DNA of 49,860 nucleotides from the NCBI GenBank assembly GCA_030549855.1, contig JAUQQP010000024.1:1-49860 (forward strand). The letters run 5' to 3'. The translations under genes were made by a program, and so were the position numbers. Source of the stretch: Cyanobacteriota bacterium SRBZ.bins.94.201705 (GTDB taxonomy: Bacteria > Cyanobacteriota > Cyanobacteriia > Cyanobacteriales > Cyanobacteriaceae). Every line of letters starts with the position of its first letter. The stretch's first letter is position 1. Below, piece by piece: positions 14,614 through 40,435 of this stretch. The notes beneath the pieces are model-generated. The model was given only the letters and a program-made list of their open reading frames with translations, did no database searches and had not been told where the DNA came from.

Positions 14614-15162
14614 AGAGAAGACTAGTCCTCCCCCCATATGATGAGAGGAGGATGGTTGATTTTGTGCCCAAGCTTTAATTGACAAAAAATCTTACGATAG
14701 TGAAAGGGAAAAAAAGGGCAAAAAATGGCAGTTTACGCAATTTTAGTGATAAAAAGAATCAACATAGGCGTGGATGGAGTTGTAAATTCTTAGGAGGAGG
14801 GAAAGGTGTAAGAATAGGCTAAGGAGGGAGGATGGGTTAGCACTTTACAATATGTTAGACAGTGTTGGCTGCCAGCGAGCGGCGGATAGACTCGTTTCAC
14901 CCCTAGTTTGAGGATGTATGGGGTTGTAGTGGAAAAAAAAGCAAATATCCCCTGTCTGTCTAAATTAGCAAAAACAACACCGGGACAAAGGGATTCAAGT
15001 CTTTTTTTCTGTTATCCTCCCCGAGGCAAAGGAGAGTCGTTTTACCTCGCCGTCAAGAGGGTTTTGTCCTATCTTGCCCCGGTTACGATTATTGTACCCT
15101 GACCTGCCTGCCAACTGTACAACCCCATACACCCCAAAATCCAAAAATTCCCCTCTTATCCC
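14614..15162. other. Intergenic stretch, no convincing gene
   Basis: Just after the kinase there is a TCCTCC/GGAGGA inverted repeat (14626-14631 and 14647-14652) without a T-run. A TTGACA at 14679-14684 followed by an AT-rich TTTTAGTGATAAAAAGAATCAAC (~14738-14761) resembles the 3' block of the RNA module family described below. The hexamer spacing is wrong and no hairpin is evident, so this may be a decayed copy. Several short frames exist but none has coding character. Confidence 0.5.
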
Positions 15163-15250
15163 TTGACAAAACCCCCATCTCAGAGATACAATGTGATTGT
15201 ATTGTGGGGGTATTGTGCGAATTTTTTAAATTATAATGATTACTATCATC
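15163..15250 (+). ncRNA. Promoter-hairpin RNA module, copy A
   Basis: TTGACA (15163-15168), 18-nt spacer, TACAAT (15187-15192). A perfect ATACAAT/ATTGTAT inverted repeat overlaps the -10. Then comes a T6 run and the AT-rich block TTTTTTAAATTATAATGATT, ending in ATCATCAAAC. It is the most divergent member of the family (see copies B to G and I). It shares the 18-nt spacing and 3' block but not the usual hairpin. No gene follows on the plus strand; the converging exported-protein gene ends at 15399. Confidence 0.35.
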
Positions 15251-15398
15251 AAACTGGTGGTAGGAGAGGATGATACGCCCCATTAGGGCATTTTCCGGGG
15301 AATAAATGAAAATGTTATGCATTAACAAATGTACGCGGAGGCGGGGGTGAGGGGAAAGGAGTATAGCAGTCAATATACCCGTACTAGGGGGATAATGT

Positions 15399-16199
15399 CT
15401 AGGATTGAAGTTTAACCCTGAGGGAAAGGATTTTGATGCCACCATTACGGATAAGGATAGCAGAATACAAGTGGTCGGGGGAGGGGGTAGGGATTTTAAC
15501 CCGCTTAAATATGCCGCCGGAGGAAATGGAATTCAATTCAATGGAGGGGGATTGAAGATAGAGGGAGGGGGATACTGTAGACTCAGACACCCCTGCCAAG
15601 ACAATATCACCTGCTAATGGCTCTTGTAATATTACGTCAAAGTCGAACTCTTGTCCAGGACGTACCTTTTCTGGAAGTCTTACAATCACTTGAGGGGGAT
15701 TGTCGCCACTGGTAATTTCAGTTTTTTCCCTCAAAATTTCCTGTTTTGCCAACATGCCATTTTCAAAATCCTGCCTTGAGGTTATCTCCGAGTTTATTAC
15801 AAATTCCCGGCCATTTTCCTCATATTTTCCCTTTATGGTGGTAGTTGTTTCCACAGTATATTTCCCTCCCCTTCCCTTATAACTATTTATTTTCGTTTCA
15901 TATTGCATCCCCGGGTATTTTTGCCATAAATTTGCCAAAGCCTGAAGAAACAAGTCGCCATTGAAACCATCTTGGCTTACAAATTGAGGAGATATAAACC
16001 CCCTAAGTTTTTCAATATTCCTCTCATTTGCCGCTTCATCAATAGCTGATACCAATTTACTCAAATCGGGGGGAATTTTTGTGTTATCCTCAGCCTTCAC
16101 TGGGGATGGTGAAGCCACTGGGAATACTGAAAACACAAACAAGGAAACAAAAAAAGACAAATAAAAATTCCCTACTCCCCCCTTTCTCTCTCTTGACAT
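15399..16199 (-). CDS. Exported protein with NTF2-like domain
   Basis: The ATG at 16199 is chosen: GGGAGGG lies just upstream and it places a clear signal peptide at the N-terminus (MSRERK, then a hydrophobic stretch FYLSFFVSLFVFSVF, then ASPSPVKA as likely cleavage region). The longer open frame to 16370 has no signal and runs into the divergent module B. The mature protein (~230 residues) begins with a helical/NTF2-like part (LVSAIDEAANERNIEKL..FISPQF), often seen in cyanobacterial exported proteins, then a beta-rich C-terminal part (VIVRLPEKVRPGQEFDFDV). No catalytic residues are recognisable. It probably resides in the periplasm or thylakoid lumen; function unknown. Confidence 0.75.
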   Translation of the reverse strand: MSRERKGGVGNFYLSFFVSLFVFSVFPVASPSPVKAEDNTKIPPDLSKLVSAIDEAANERNIEKLRGFISPQFVSQDGFNGDLFLQALANLWQKYPGMQYETKINSYKGRGGKYTVETTTTIKGKYEENGREFVINSEITSRQDFENGMLAKQEILREKTEITSGDNPPQVIVRLPEKVRPGQEFDFDVILQEPLAGDIVLAGVSESTVSPSLYLQSPSIELNSISSGGIFKRVKIPTPSPDHLYSAILIRNGGIKILSLRVKLQS

Positions 16200-16288
16200 A
16201 ATCTTTCCCTCCCTACACACCTCTAGTCTTGTTCCTGTACCCAATTTATCATATTGGCTCCCCTTTAAAGAAATTTTGCCCTTTTTCC

Positions 16289-16395
16289 TTGACAAAAAGA
16301 GACTGTTGAGGATAGGATTAGGGAAAGGAGAGGGGCAGGTGATATGACTGCCAGTGGCTTGCCTGACCAAAATTCAAATACAAATAATTAGCAGC
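16289..16395 (+). ncRNA. Promoter-hairpin RNA module, copy B
   Basis: TTGACA (16289-16294), 18-nt spacer, TAGGAT (16313-16318). The transcript would begin near 16325 with purine-rich sequence. A stem GGCAG (16334-16338) / CTGCC (16348-16352) encloses the nine-nt loop GTGATATGA. The AT-rich 3' block AAAATTCAAATACAAATAATTAGC follows, with no T-run. A CCCCTC/GAGGGG hairpin lies at 16403-16421. It is divergent from the exported protein gene (start 16199), and no gene follows it directly. Confidence 0.45.
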
Positions 16396-16505
16396 AATAA
16401 ATCCCCTCAGGGCAGGAGGGGAAGAGGAGTCAGAGAAAGGCCATTCGGGATAGTTTTTTCGCTAGGTAGTAAAAATCGCCGCTTTTCCCAACTTCTTTCC
16501 ACCGG

Positions 16506-16542
16506 CGAAGTCTGCGCCGATTTGGACATAGACGGCTTTCGA
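16506..16542 (+). other. 35-nt fragment nearly identical to part of chlI
   Basis: From about 16507 the plus strand reads GAAGTCTGCGCCGA, then TTGGACATAGACGGC. This matches the chlI coding strand (minus strand, ~20037-20072) at 32 of 35 positions by eye and encodes the same EVCA(D/E)LDIDG residues. The flanks do not align. It looks like a small duplicated or recombined remnant of chlI in the wrong place. Confidence 0.6.
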
Positions 16543-16573
16543 TTTTTCTTCCATGAAAATCTCCGTCTAGTCC

Positions 16574-16680
16574 TTGACAATAGGCTCTTTTGTATGGCAC
16601 AATGGTTAGAGTTGGGGCCCAGAGTCAGATACTGGGTTGCTTGTCCTGCTTAATTTTTAAATGAAAAAAATAATCAAGTA
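16574..16680 (+). ncRNA. Promoter-hairpin RNA module, copy C
   Basis: TTGACA (16574-16579), 18-nt spacer, CACAAT (16598-16603). Stem CCCAG (16618-16622) / CTGGG (16632-16636) with nine-nt loop AGTCAGATA. Then a T5 run and TTTTTAAATGAAAAAAATAA, ending in TCAAG. It is closest to copy D. A small membrane-protein frame starts at 16707, so this copy may be the promoter and leader of that gene. Confidence 0.5.
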
Positions 16681-16706
16681 AATCCGGGAGGAATGAAACA
16701 AAAGGA

Positions 16707-16886
16707 ATGGCTGATGGATGGCAACAACAGTCGCCTGCCGTTTATGCCATTATTCCTAATCCAGCAGATAACAACAAACTTAAGGCTATTGGTTTCACAT
16801 TTCTTTTCTCAATTGCTGGGTGTTATGTTATTTTTCTCCCAGCAGTCTTTTATTTGCCTGTCACTGGGGTTTTATTCTACTACTAG
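16707..16886 (+). CDS. Small predicted membrane protein (59 aa)
   Basis: ATG GCT GAT at 16707 opens a 59-codon frame ending TAG at 16884. The N-terminal ~25 residues are polar (MADGWQQQSPAVYAIIPN and so on), followed by two hydrophobic stretches split by a proline: AIGFTFLFSIAGCYVIF and LPAVFYLPVTGVLFYY. AAAAGGA lies directly upstream and GGGAGG 15 nt upstream; a competing frame starts at 16693. The composition is that of a real small membrane protein rather than chance. A GTTAAGA/TCTTAAC inverted repeat followed by TTTATTG (~16889-16926) could terminate transcription. I do not recognise a family. It sits ~100 nt after the promoter of module C. Confidence 0.5.
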   Translation: MADGWQQQSPAVYAIIPNPADNNKLKAIGFTFLFSIAGCYVIFLPAVFYLPVTGVLFYY

Positions 16887-17292
16887 CTGTTAAGATAAAG
16901 CGGGGAAGTCAGTCTTAACTTTATTGCCACTGTTGCCTGTAGTCAAGGGGAGAAATTTTCCCACACTCAACAATCCAACACCATGCCCAACACGCCCAAA
17001 CTATTAGATTATAAGAAATCTCCTGCACAAAGGCCCAGGAATTTTCAACAAAACTGACATCAGGGGAAATACAATCTCCCCACCAATCCCATCAACTTTT
17101 CCAATTTCCAATACCCGCCATCTTGACCAGGAGGCTAGTTCTGCAGGAGAATGAGAGGGTTTGGCTATTTACTTTACTAGAAGCAAGACAATCAATACAT
17201 TTTCCGTTTTTCCTTACCGCTTACTTCCCTTGTCCAACTTTTTCTTGGTTGTTTTCTTCTCCTTTTCCCTTGTAAAAAACTTCTGTCGGGTC
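16887..17292. other. Intergenic stretch between small gene and module D
   Basis: Apart from the possible terminator hairpin at ~16889-16926 I see no gene, RNA or repeat. The last ~80 bases before module D are pyrimidine-rich. Confidence 0.4.
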
Positions 17293-17403
17293 TTGACAAA
17301 GGGCGCCCTTCTGTGGCAGAATGAGTATCATGGGGCGCCAGGTAGAGATACTGGAAGGGTTGGTGCTGGGCACATAATAAATGAAAAAAATAAGCAACTA
17401 TAG
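17293..17403 (+). ncRNA. Promoter-hairpin RNA module, copy D
   Basis: TTGACA (17293-17298), 18-nt spacer, CAGAAT (17317-17322). Stem CCAG/CTGG (within 17337-17355) with nine-nt loop GTAGAGATA, then TGCTGGGCAC and AATAAATGAAAAAAATAAGCAAC, almost identical to the 3' block of copy C. A purine-rich stretch of ~100 nt follows (17404-17500), like the leaders after copies F and I. No convincing gene lies after it. Confidence 0.5.
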
Positions 17404-17966
17404 AAAATAAAAAGGAGCAGACAGAGGCAAGACATAGAAGAAGCAAAGATTTAAGGACTAGACAAGACAAGGAGTAGAAGTGGTAGAGAAGACAAGAGGG
17501 GGACCAACCAACAGACACAATTGGGACGTCATCTAACACAGGGTTATATGGGGGAAGAGAATTACTTTCCAACTGGAGAAAACAGCAAAAAAAGAGGAAA
17601 GGCGCAAAAGAAAAAGGAGGGAGTGAGGGAATTTTTCTGGGATGGAAAAAAAGGCAGCTATGATTGCCTTCGTCTGGGTGTATTTGTCAAACTTTCCTTA
17701 ACGGTAACACACACCTGGAAGCGGTAAATCACGTAACAATGGGGTATGAAACCAGGTTGCTTTACTCTAAAAAATAAGCGCTAGAAAACAAGTATAACCC
17801 CGGAAAAAAAGCCAGGCAACCATTACCAAAAAAGCCAAAACAGGCCAAAAAAAACTAAGGAAAATACAACACACCAGAATAACCAGTAGTCTAGTCCAAT
17901 AACAGGTAGTCCTCTCGCGGGCAAAGGGGGAGACAGAAGACAATAGAAATTATCCTCCCCTGCCCC
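17404..17966. other. Intergenic stretch between modules D and E
   Basis: The first ~100 nt are purine-rich on the plus strand, as in a leader. Frames of 60-130 codons exist on both strands but have no hydrophobic pattern, motif or credible ribosome site. A 19-codon frame at ~17644 (MEKKAAMIAFVWVYL start) is hydrophobic but too short to support. I see nothing else here. Confidence 0.4.
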
Positions 17967-18075
17967 TTGACAAAAAGGGGGATTTCATGATAGGATGGAG
18001 AAAATGGACGGCGGGTAGCTAGAGACCGCCAGGGCCGGACCTGGGCACTTTTTAAATGATAAAAATATTCAACAA
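17967..18075 (+). ncRNA. Promoter-hairpin RNA module, copy E
   Basis: TTGACA (17967-17972), 18-nt spacer, TAGGAT (17991-17996). The first stem GGCGG/CCGCC has an 11-nt loop. It is directly followed by CCAGG/CCTGG with loop GCCGGA, then GCACTTTTT. The two stems share two C residues, so they would compete, and the second plus T5 looks like an intrinsic terminator. The usual 3' block follows (TTTTTAAATGAT, then AAATATTCAAC). The downstream gene on the opposite strand ends at 18092, so this RNA would converge on the moaD-like gene. Confidence 0.5.
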
Positions 18076-18091
18076 ATGGGGATTGAGAACA

Positions 18092-18367
18092 TCAACCCCC
18101 AGCAACGGCGGGAACAATGCTAACCTCGTCGCCGTCGGAGAGGGGGGTGGCAGTGTTGTTTAAAAAGCGGATGTCCTCACTGTTGACATAGAAGTTGAGG
18201 AAGCGACGGGGGTTGCCGTTTTCATCGCAGAGGCGAGACTTGATGCCAGGGAATTTGCTTTCCAAAACGTCGATCAATTCCTGAATGTTGCTGGCATCAC
18301 ACTCTACTACAGCCTGATCTTGGGTAAACTTTTGGAGGGGAGTTGGAATTAGTACTTTTACAGACAT
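18092..18367 (-). CDS. MoaD/ThiS-family ubiquitin-like sulfur carrier
   Basis: 91 residues from the ATG at 18367 ([15 protein letters not shown]), which has AGGA upstream; an open frame to 18418 adds 17 unlikely residues. The beta-grasp fold pattern and the C-terminal ...SIVPAVAGG with terminal Gly-Gly are typical of MoaD/ThiS/CysO carriers, which are adenylated and thiocarboxylated at that glycine. It lies 69 nt after the thrC stop on the same strand, a pairing known in other cyanobacteria and actinobacteria. This suggests a link with sulfur transfer to amino acids, as in CysO, rather than molybdopterin; that assignment is inference. Confidence 0.85.
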
Positions 18368-24651: not shown

Positions 24652-24740
24652 TTTTTCTTCTCCTTTCTTTTTCTTCTTTCCCCGCCTTTCTTTTCTTCCA
24701 TTCTACTTCTCTCTCCTTTTTTGTTTTCTTTCTTTTCTAT

Positions 24741-24850
24741 TGCTATATCTTCTCAATTAAAAAATGCGCTGCCCAAGTGTCTTGGCAGTCCATCCGCCTG
24801 CCGCCCACTTCCATAGCCCTATTGTAGCGCAAAAAAATGGGATTTGTCAA
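24741..24850 (-). ncRNA. Promoter-hairpin RNA module, copy F (upstream of pap)
   Basis: On the minus strand: TTGACA (24845-24850), 18-nt spacer, TACAAT (24821-24826). Stem GGCAG/CTGCC with nine-nt loop GCGGATGGA, then AAGACACTT, GGGCAG and CGCATTTTTT (T-run at 24759-24764). The GGCAG after AAGACACTT could pair with the same CTGCC, so two mutually exclusive hairpins are possible, the second followed by T6. The block ends TTAATTGAGAAGATATAGC. A purine-rich leader and pap follow. Confidence 0.5.
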
Positions 24851-26329: not shown

Positions 26330-26438
26330 CCGTTGCTATTTACTTTCAATAATTTTAAAGGCAAGACAAGTGTCTGAGCGCGCTATCCAGCCCACCCCAT
26401 CCTCCTACCATCCTATCAAAAAAAAGTCCCCTTGTCAA
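26330..26438 (-). ncRNA. Promoter-hairpin RNA module, copy G
   Basis: On the minus strand: TTGACA (26433-26438), 17-nt spacer, TAGGAT (26410-26415). The RNA would contain GGGCTGGATAGCGCGCTCAG, then AGAC/GTCT around ACTT, then TTGCCTTTAAAATTATTG and AAAGTAAATAGCAAC. AGACACTTG and the ending are shared with copy F. It lies just after the gamma-carbonic anhydrase gene and points at the 3' end of htrA, so the RNA could be antisense to htrA if it extends 50 nt further. Confidence 0.45.
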
Positions 26439-40317: not shown

Positions 40318-40435
40318 TTGCCAAAGAGGGACCGGCCGTGCTAGGATAGTAATAGGGGTGGGGTTGCGTCAGCAACGTACTCAAACACTTGGGCTGGAAA
40401 CATTTTTGTTGAGAATTTAGTTCAATATATGAGGT
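40318..40435 (+). ncRNA. Promoter-hairpin RNA module, copy I (upstream of gldG-like gene)
   Basis: TTGCCA (40318-40323), 18-nt spacer, TAGGAT (40342-40347). Stem GTTGC/GCAAC with a four-nt loop, then AAACACTTGGGCTGG, a T5 run and TTGAGAATTTAG. ACACTTGGGC, T-run and TTGAGAA match copy F in order. A purine-rich leader (~40436-40533) and the GldG-like gene follow. Confidence 0.45.

Follow-up and report, generated by a model that had tools for sequence, protein, structure and literature searches.

A many-copy family of putative small-RNA genes, apparently restricted to one genus, in a cyanobacterial genome

Positions 1 to 49,860 of contig JAUQQP010000024.1 of Cyanobacteriota bacterium SRBZ.bins.94.201705 (the window) carry seven copies of a unit of approximately 130 nt, in which a promoter is followed by a hairpin, a linker of one of two types (A or B), a T-run and an AT-rich box (AT box). 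Four of the copies form an array on the plus strand and the other three lie further on (Table 1). The source genome is cyanobacterial and comprises 2.87 Mb in 51 contigs, of which the window is contig C10; the genus is represented in the comparison by a single other genome, the congener G001, and genes are mechanical open reading frames (ORFs) throughout. Here, we describe these units as members of a large family that is probably made up of small-RNA (sRNA) genes. The original prediction had placed eight units in one family, five of them within 3 kb. Seven of the eight, named by the first position of their −35 box (16289, 16574, 17293, 17967, 24850, 26438 and 40318), are matched by one or both of two covariance models, R1, which was trained on 17 copies and starts at the −10 region, and R2, which was trained on 139 matches. 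The unit at 15163 is matched by neither to E ≤ 1, which leaves four copies in the 3 kb; at 15163, a different inverted repeat (CCCCCATCT ... GTGGGGG, in 15163-15230) begins in the promoter spacer and overlaps the −10 hexamer. The descriptive part of the prediction holds in the sequence, in that the promoters, stems and AT blocks lie where they were placed, the promoter spacer is 18 nt in seven of the eight units and 17 nt at 26438, and the nine-base loops given for 16289, 16574, 17293 and 24850 are exact. The array is beyond chance, because promoter-like sites are in excess in 14900-18300 (12 versus 5.2 expected, s.d. 2.2) and some 80 further copies exist in the genome.

The first copies elsewhere in the genome came from a blastn search with positions 16560-18090, the stretch that includes the copy at 17967; it matched nine further pieces in the source genome and three in G001. 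A 43-nt match in the distant genome G017 was taken as chance, because R1 found nothing in that genome. With R1 there are 88 matches in the source genome at E ≤ 1 (82 of them at E ≤ 0.01) and 50 in G001 at E ≤ 0.01; with R2 there are 93 in the source genome at E ≤ 1 (90 at E ≤ 0.01) and 63 in G001 at E ≤ 1. The counts on 147 copies given below refer to 99 loci searched with R2 at E ≤ 0.1, which hold 92 copies from the source genome and 55 from G001. Contig C58 of G001 (loci L121 and L122) has a dense cluster, with six copies in approximately 18 kb. Beyond these two genomes, R1 had no match in the 58 other genomes of the search that included G001, and none at E ≤ 0.1 in the best 80 listed loci of a thrC scan of other cyanobacteria. 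R2 at E ≤ 0.001 matched none of 289 other genomes of the order and none of 385 other genomes in a phylum sample; the two samples overlap, and both searches were coarse (15 and 11 candidates scored per genome, respectively, with strict filters), so that distant or single copies could escape. A finer R2 search of 13 other members of the taxonomic family returned just two single matches (E 0.42 and 0.99), which were taken as chance. Hence, the further copies that a covariance model was predicted to find are present in the source genome (82-90) and in the congener, but none was found outside the genus, and among the genomes sampled the family has an apparent restriction to one genus.

No Rfam family reached its gathering score over the whole window or at 13 loci with copies. 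At 14900-18200 Rfam gave four weak matches only (E 0.18-2.3), and at E ≤ 1 over 16 loci it gave two tRNAs and one weak match, none of them at a copy. A description of the family was found neither in Rfam 15 nor in the open PMC literature, a coverage outside which most subscription journals and preprints lie. This supports the earlier suggestion of an undescribed RNA family, given that the copies examined have no match in Rfam 15.

The hairpin starts approximately 13 nt past the −10 hexamer and has a 5-bp stem, which encloses a nine-base loop in 115 of the 133 copies used for length counts (out of 139, with stem-gapped copies excluded). On an alignment of 139 sequences fitted to R1 (A5), 97.3% of the pair cells are standard pairs. 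There are 146 cells with changes on both sides (36.8 after shuffling, no more than 21 when the pairing is slid), and the covariation score is 0.484 (0.178 shuffled, no more than 0.088 slid). The control slid by −3 has 92% of its 293 cells paired, yet its double changes number 4 and its score is 0.043. A5 leans towards the four stem pairs of R1, a model that includes neither the outermost stem pair nor a further pair inside the loop. This loop pair, between bases 2 and 7, is assumed by no model and covaries as a Watson-Crick pair (C-G 45, U-A 40, A-U 36); in mutual information over all columns it ranks first (z = 30), with the stem pairs next. The pairing is under selection, as had been proposed from the differing stems. 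The loop had been regarded as constant; it is instead structured, mostly nine bases long and with a covarying internal pair. Nine-base loops nearly always start with G (119 of 124) and end with A (123 of 124), and these two bases could form a sheared G-A pair. Mismatches in pairs, counted on an alignment fitted to R2 (A6), are far more often G-U than A-C (36 versus 6, P = 1.4e-6), which points to the strand of the predicted transcript as the sense strand.

Past the stem, the T-run follows at 18 or 20 nt in 130 of the 133 copies, the two distances corresponding to linker types A and B. Two further helices were considered and rejected. A second stem (CCAGG/CCTGG; CCAAG/CTTGG in type B) is a frequent sequence match but does not covary in either linker type. 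In the AT box, which on average is palindromic, the opposed columns show no covariation. One terminator-like site lies inside a copy (18029-18044). In the 100 nt preceding the −10 region the strand has a purine share of 0.32-0.41; the share flips at the promoter, is 0.66-0.77 in the first 25 nt past the AT box and falls to approximately 0.5-0.6 by 300 nt. For the genes of the window, coding DNA has 0.53 and the 60 nt ahead of a gene 0.59. The flip might reflect what a transcribed strand looks like, which is not proof of transcription.

Since R1 begins at the −10 region, the DNA upstream of it is an independent test of the promoters, and we used the 119 untrained copies with complete upstream DNA. 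Class 1 promoters are of the sigma-70 type (TTGACA-N18-TGNTANNAT), with TTGACA (at least 5 of 6 bases) at a spacing of 18 in 46 copies and of 17 in 14, against a background of approximately 1 per position. Class 2 promoters have no −35 box and carry TTTACATTTCTTAA 30-44 nt upstream of the −10 hexamer; at 10 or more of 14 bases, this motif peaks at two adjacent positions (32 copies). The classes are nearly mutually exclusive, with TTGACA in 60 copies, TTTACATTTCTTAA in 38, both in 2 and neither in 23. They also go with the linker, which is of type A in 34 of the 38 TTTACATTTCTTAA copies and of type B in 47 of the 60 TTGACA copies. The TTGACA-type promoter, predicted as a feature of the module, is therefore found in many copies, but approximately a third (38/119) have the other motif. 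Exact TTGACA-N18-TANNAT occurs at 59 sites in the source genome (7 in the reversed control), 33 of them within family copies. By itself TTTACATTTCTTAA is not rare at up to two mismatches (125 sites versus 88 in the reversed control), and 5 of its 16 exact sites lie outside the copies found, before an HU gene, a gamma-glutamylcyclotransferase-like gene and others (named by eye). At G000:C17:49190 (L216; G000 is the source genome) the motif stands upstream of a gene for an HU-like DNA-binding protein (named by eye), and at G000:C14:69633 (L215:1001), outside the family, it is followed by a −10-like element and further on by a 77-aa ORF. Compared with the HLR1 half-site of RpaB as given in PMC9241938, the first half of the class 2 motif, TTTACATT, fits and the second, TTAATTTT, fits only partly; no Pho or high-light pattern was recognised. 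The motif suggests that class 2 promoters are under a putative OmpR-type activator.

Most copies (112/139) lie clear of ORFs of at least 80 aa, with no overlap above 40 nt. The next downstream ORF is on the same strand for 53 copies, on the opposite strand for 79 and undetermined for 7. Flanking proteins identify positional partners in G001 for 32 copies (26 by both flanks, 6 by one; hand-picked from the flanking-protein list, one partner per copy). The stem arms of these partners are 88% identical and their promoter-hairpin spacers 44%. Of 183 pair cells in the 32 partner pairs, 154 are unchanged, 14 have changed on both sides and 11 on one, and 4 are unpaired in one species. Seven regions with convergent copies were folded (no shuffled control); in most, but not at L122, the read-through transcript is predicted to be one long stem.

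Table 1. Copies of the unit, and one non-member, in the window
Feature	Position (strand)	−35	−10	Hairpin	Linker	AT box	Model matches and remarks
Copy 1, type A linker, class 1 promoter	16289..16397 (+)	TTGACA 16289-16294	TAGGAT 16313-16318	GGCAG-GTGATATGA-CTGCC 16334-16352	16353-16368	16369-16397	R1 E = 1.8e-4 in genome, though outside R1 training set
Copy 2, type B by alignment	16574..16681 (+)	16574-16579	CACAAT 16598-16603	CCCAG-AGTCAGATA-CTGGG 16618-16636	16637-16653	16654-16681 (with T-run)	R1 E = 7.5e-7, R2 E = 1.2e-4; in both training sets
Copy 3, type A	17293..17400 (+)	17293-17298	CAGAAT 17317-17322	CCAG-GTAGAGATA-CTGG 17338-17354	17355-17372	17373-17398	R1 E = 4.3e-11; in training set
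Copy 4, type A	17967..18075 (+)	17967-17972	TAGGAT 17991-17996	GGCGG-11 nt-CCGCC 18010-18030	18031-18048	18049-18075 (with T-run)	R1 E = 3.4e-13; in training set
Copy 5, type B	24737..24850 (-)	24845-24850	TACAAT 24821-24826	GGCAG-GCGGATGGA-CTGCC 24784-24802	24766-24783	24737-24765	R2 E = 8.6e-11; in training set
Copy 6, degenerate type B, 17-nt promoter spacer	26332..26438 (-)	26433-26438	26410-26415	26376-26393	26360-26375	26332-26359	Marginal, R2 E = 0.008 in genome
Copy 7, degenerate	40318..40428 (+)	TTGCCA 40318-40323	TAGGAT 40342-40347	Unrelated, GTTGC-GTCA-GCAAC (4-nt loop) 40363-40376	ACACTTGGGCTGG	40398-40428	R1 E = 0.002, outside R1 training; family hairpin absent in alignment; promoter, linker and AT box fit
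Non-member	15163..15192 (+)						Strong sigma-70-type promoter only

In the window, the genes upstream of the array match those of locus L110 in G001, the genes downstream of the copy at 24850 match those of the G001 copy at L111 (one flank only), and the copy at 26438 has its positional partner at L123:2501. Just upstream of the array, 14907-15139 holds 22-nt inverted-repeat arms that are 86% complementary and 189 nt apart; this element resembles a small MITE and is apparently unrelated to the family.

We consider it probable (approximately 0.7), judging from sequence, that the units make up a family of standalone, paralogous sRNA genes in very many copies, restricted to the genus, because they have their own promoters, selected pairing and a strand bias, and most lie outside genes and are not 5' leaders. 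A multicopy sRNA family is marked by several extragenic, paralogous loci that have a promoter and an RNA segment in common, with a structure under selection, and this is what is found here. RNA polymerase would make an RNA whose 5' end is the hairpin. By analogy with known families, the hairpin may serve all the RNAs as a handle for one shared partner, most likely a protein, and may also shield the 5' end, and the variable 5' leader and the purine-rich tail past the AT box may act as target selectors, so that each RNA would base-pair with targets of its own. With two promoter classes, one set of RNAs would be constitutive and the other conditional, under the OmpR-type activator. In the source genome there are approximately 45 type-B units, mostly with TTGACA promoters, and approximately 47 type-A units, over half of them with the activator-type motif. 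A bolder picture, which we offer as distinctly unlikely in full, would be a genus with a dispersed two-input RNA network. A and B RNAs would share the handle and compete for one limiting partner, induction of type A would reallocate that partner genome-wide and convergent A/B pairs would be local antagonistic switches, the whole set having perhaps spread as a mobile unit that turned into RNA genes.

Several observations weigh against standalone sRNA genes. The partner protein was not found: an expansion of RRM proteins, tried by analogy to the RNA-binding protein RbpB, was not seen (2 in the source genome, 2-4 in 14 relatives). No canonical terminator is evident, with the second stem lacking covariation and terminator-like sites in no excess in 14900-18300 (7 versus 5.1 expected), and 23 of the 119 copies have neither promoter class. 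An ORF of at least 80 aa is overlapped by more than 40 nt in 27 of 139 copies, although this ORF has 80-130 aa for 23 of them, many likely spurious, and exceeds 130 aa for 4, which mostly lie near the ORF end. Positional partners in G001 are 69% identical versus 59% for random cross pairs, a modest gap, and a few of them have no hairpin. In addition, neighbouring copies are arranged in a way that fits a mobile repeat equally well, given that among the 147 copies those within 600 nt of each other form 17 convergent pairs, 11 tandem pairs and no divergent pair.

The main rival to the sRNA genes is a promoter-carrying miniature mobile repeat of the REPIN or MITE type, in which the hairpin would be a DNA structure for a transposase, the convergent pairs would transpose, single copies would be remnants and any RNA would be incidental. 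The hallmark of REPINs is the inverted doublet outside genes, commonly spaced at 71 or 110 bp (PMC3116915), and REPs, known from cyanobacteria too, are described as extragenic, often between convergent genes and mostly inverted dimers (PMC3733652). The units are likewise extragenic hairpin repeats in many copies with inverted doublets approximately 110 nt apart, and the gaps of the convergent pairs are 64-151 nt in 15 of 17. For ten pairs of copies that lie on different contigs, identity is 80% or more over 100 nt or longer, with 91% over 149 nt in the best and 86% over 132 nt in the next. The best pair, G000:C16:75 and G000:C19:38424, lies at contig ends on both sides and is perhaps a recent duplication that broke the assembly. 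However, REPs are 20-40 bp long, whereas the unit here is longer, at approximately 130 nt, includes a promoter and has a spacer whose sequence is unconserved but whose length is fixed at 18 nt. In several type A pairs the likeness of the paralogs sets in at the upstream motif, in type B pairs close to the −35 box, and this variable start suits constraint on promoter and RNA better than fixed transposon ends. REP hairpins carry a GTAG or CGTC tag at the foot. Here, GTAG is not among the 12 commonest hairpin feet; of the 5' feet in 147 copies, GGAC (44), GGGC (30) and TGGC (18) are the frequent ones, and the GGAC copies read CGTC on the other strand at the stem-foot junction. No HUH plus Y..NP motif pair of the REP-associated tyrosine transposase (RAYT) was seen in six frames of the flanks examined, in a motif screen that was unvalidated and had no positive control. 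Two linker types are combined within pairs (type A with type B in 11 of the 17 convergent pairs), tandem pairs occur, the G-U pairs are strand-specific and the congener has positional partners with compensatory changes. We therefore rate the mobile repeat as unlikely, although both may be true if a repeat spread and then became a set of RNA genes.

Three further alternatives were considered. It is improbable that the AT box is a Fur-family operator that makes the RNAs iron- or zinc-regulated: the box (TGANAAT-A-ATTNTCA) is loosely palindromic, shows no covariation and resembles the Anabaena FurA consensus AAATAAATTCTCAATAAAT as published (PMC4005646), but the 7-1-7 pattern (up to one mismatch) occurs in only 6 source-genome copies, Fur-like sites with a central G/C cluster elsewhere, and the distance from hairpin to box (18/20 nt to the T-run in 130/133) is kept better than that from hairpin to −10. 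Fur-like boxes, AGAGAATGATTATCA among them, are clustered within 3.3 kb at G000:C14:41522-44749, possibly an iron-uptake locus. That the units are 5' leader elements (riboswitches or attenuators) of downstream genes is highly improbable: the 53 copies with the next gene on the same strand would allow it, but with that gene opposite in 79 the copies as a class are not leaders. Still less probable are genes for very small proteins, with the hairpin region encoding a peptide. The peptide at 24850 (MEVGGRRMDCQDTWAAHFLIEKI) was promising, and in 108 of 139 copies at least one of the three frames has some start codon and stays open through the linker, but the open frame varies (73, 32 and 28 copies for the three frames) and neither a common frame nor a conserved downstream peptide from the AT box was found. 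The two linker types are unequal by 2 nt in the distance from stem to T-run, 10- and 11-nt loops shift the frame, and the covariation links a Gly codon position that is silent with codons whose amino acid changes (partly by inspection).

Among the closest known systems is FopS of Bacteroides, for which dispersed paralogous genes (14 copies, 12-15 per genome) bound by RbpB are described (PMC11697453). Both consist of paralogous dispersed loci with a shared conserved segment and a promoter; compared by description only, FopS belongs to another phylum, whereas the family here is larger (approximately 90 copies), with promoters of two classes, a 5' hairpin that covaries and copies in convergent pairs. 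NsiR1 of heterocystous cyanobacteria is also a cyanobacterial multicopy sRNA with a promoter per copy, described as 12 tandem copies upstream of hetF (PMC9045159). By that account, NsiR1 is a single tandem array with seven identical copies and a DIF1 motif, whereas the present copies are dispersed, divergent and mostly not in arrays. Most of their promoters are TTGACA or TTTACATTTCTTAA, and no search was aimed at DIF1 or hetF. The GGAAACA motif is typical of Yfr2. It occurs in 1 of 147 copies and the copies examined have no Rfam match, which agrees with the prediction that Yfr2 does not fit. Yfr2 is described as a multicopy cyanobacterial sRNA at unconserved loci with up to nine copies (PMC6778093), a likeness in habit, but it is near-universal in cyanobacteria and the present family was found in one genus. 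We regard the units as a probable multicopy sRNA family, set apart from those compared by how many copies there are, by having been found in one genus only, by promoters of two classes and by the convergent pairs.

The copy numbers of the multicopy sRNA families compared, as described, reach approximately 15 (FopS 12-15, NsiR1 12, Yfr2 up to nine), against approximately 90 here. The REPIN-like features together with two kinds of promoter make it testable whether such families originate by duplication or from mobile repeats, and more than 100 natural variants of one covarying hairpin are a direct substrate for finding its partner. If the units are sRNA genes, the approximately 90 copies in the 2.87-Mb genome would make up a set of related regulatory RNAs that is unusually large for a single bacterium. 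With none in the sampled genomes outside the genus, this large set would have been invented rapidly and recently.

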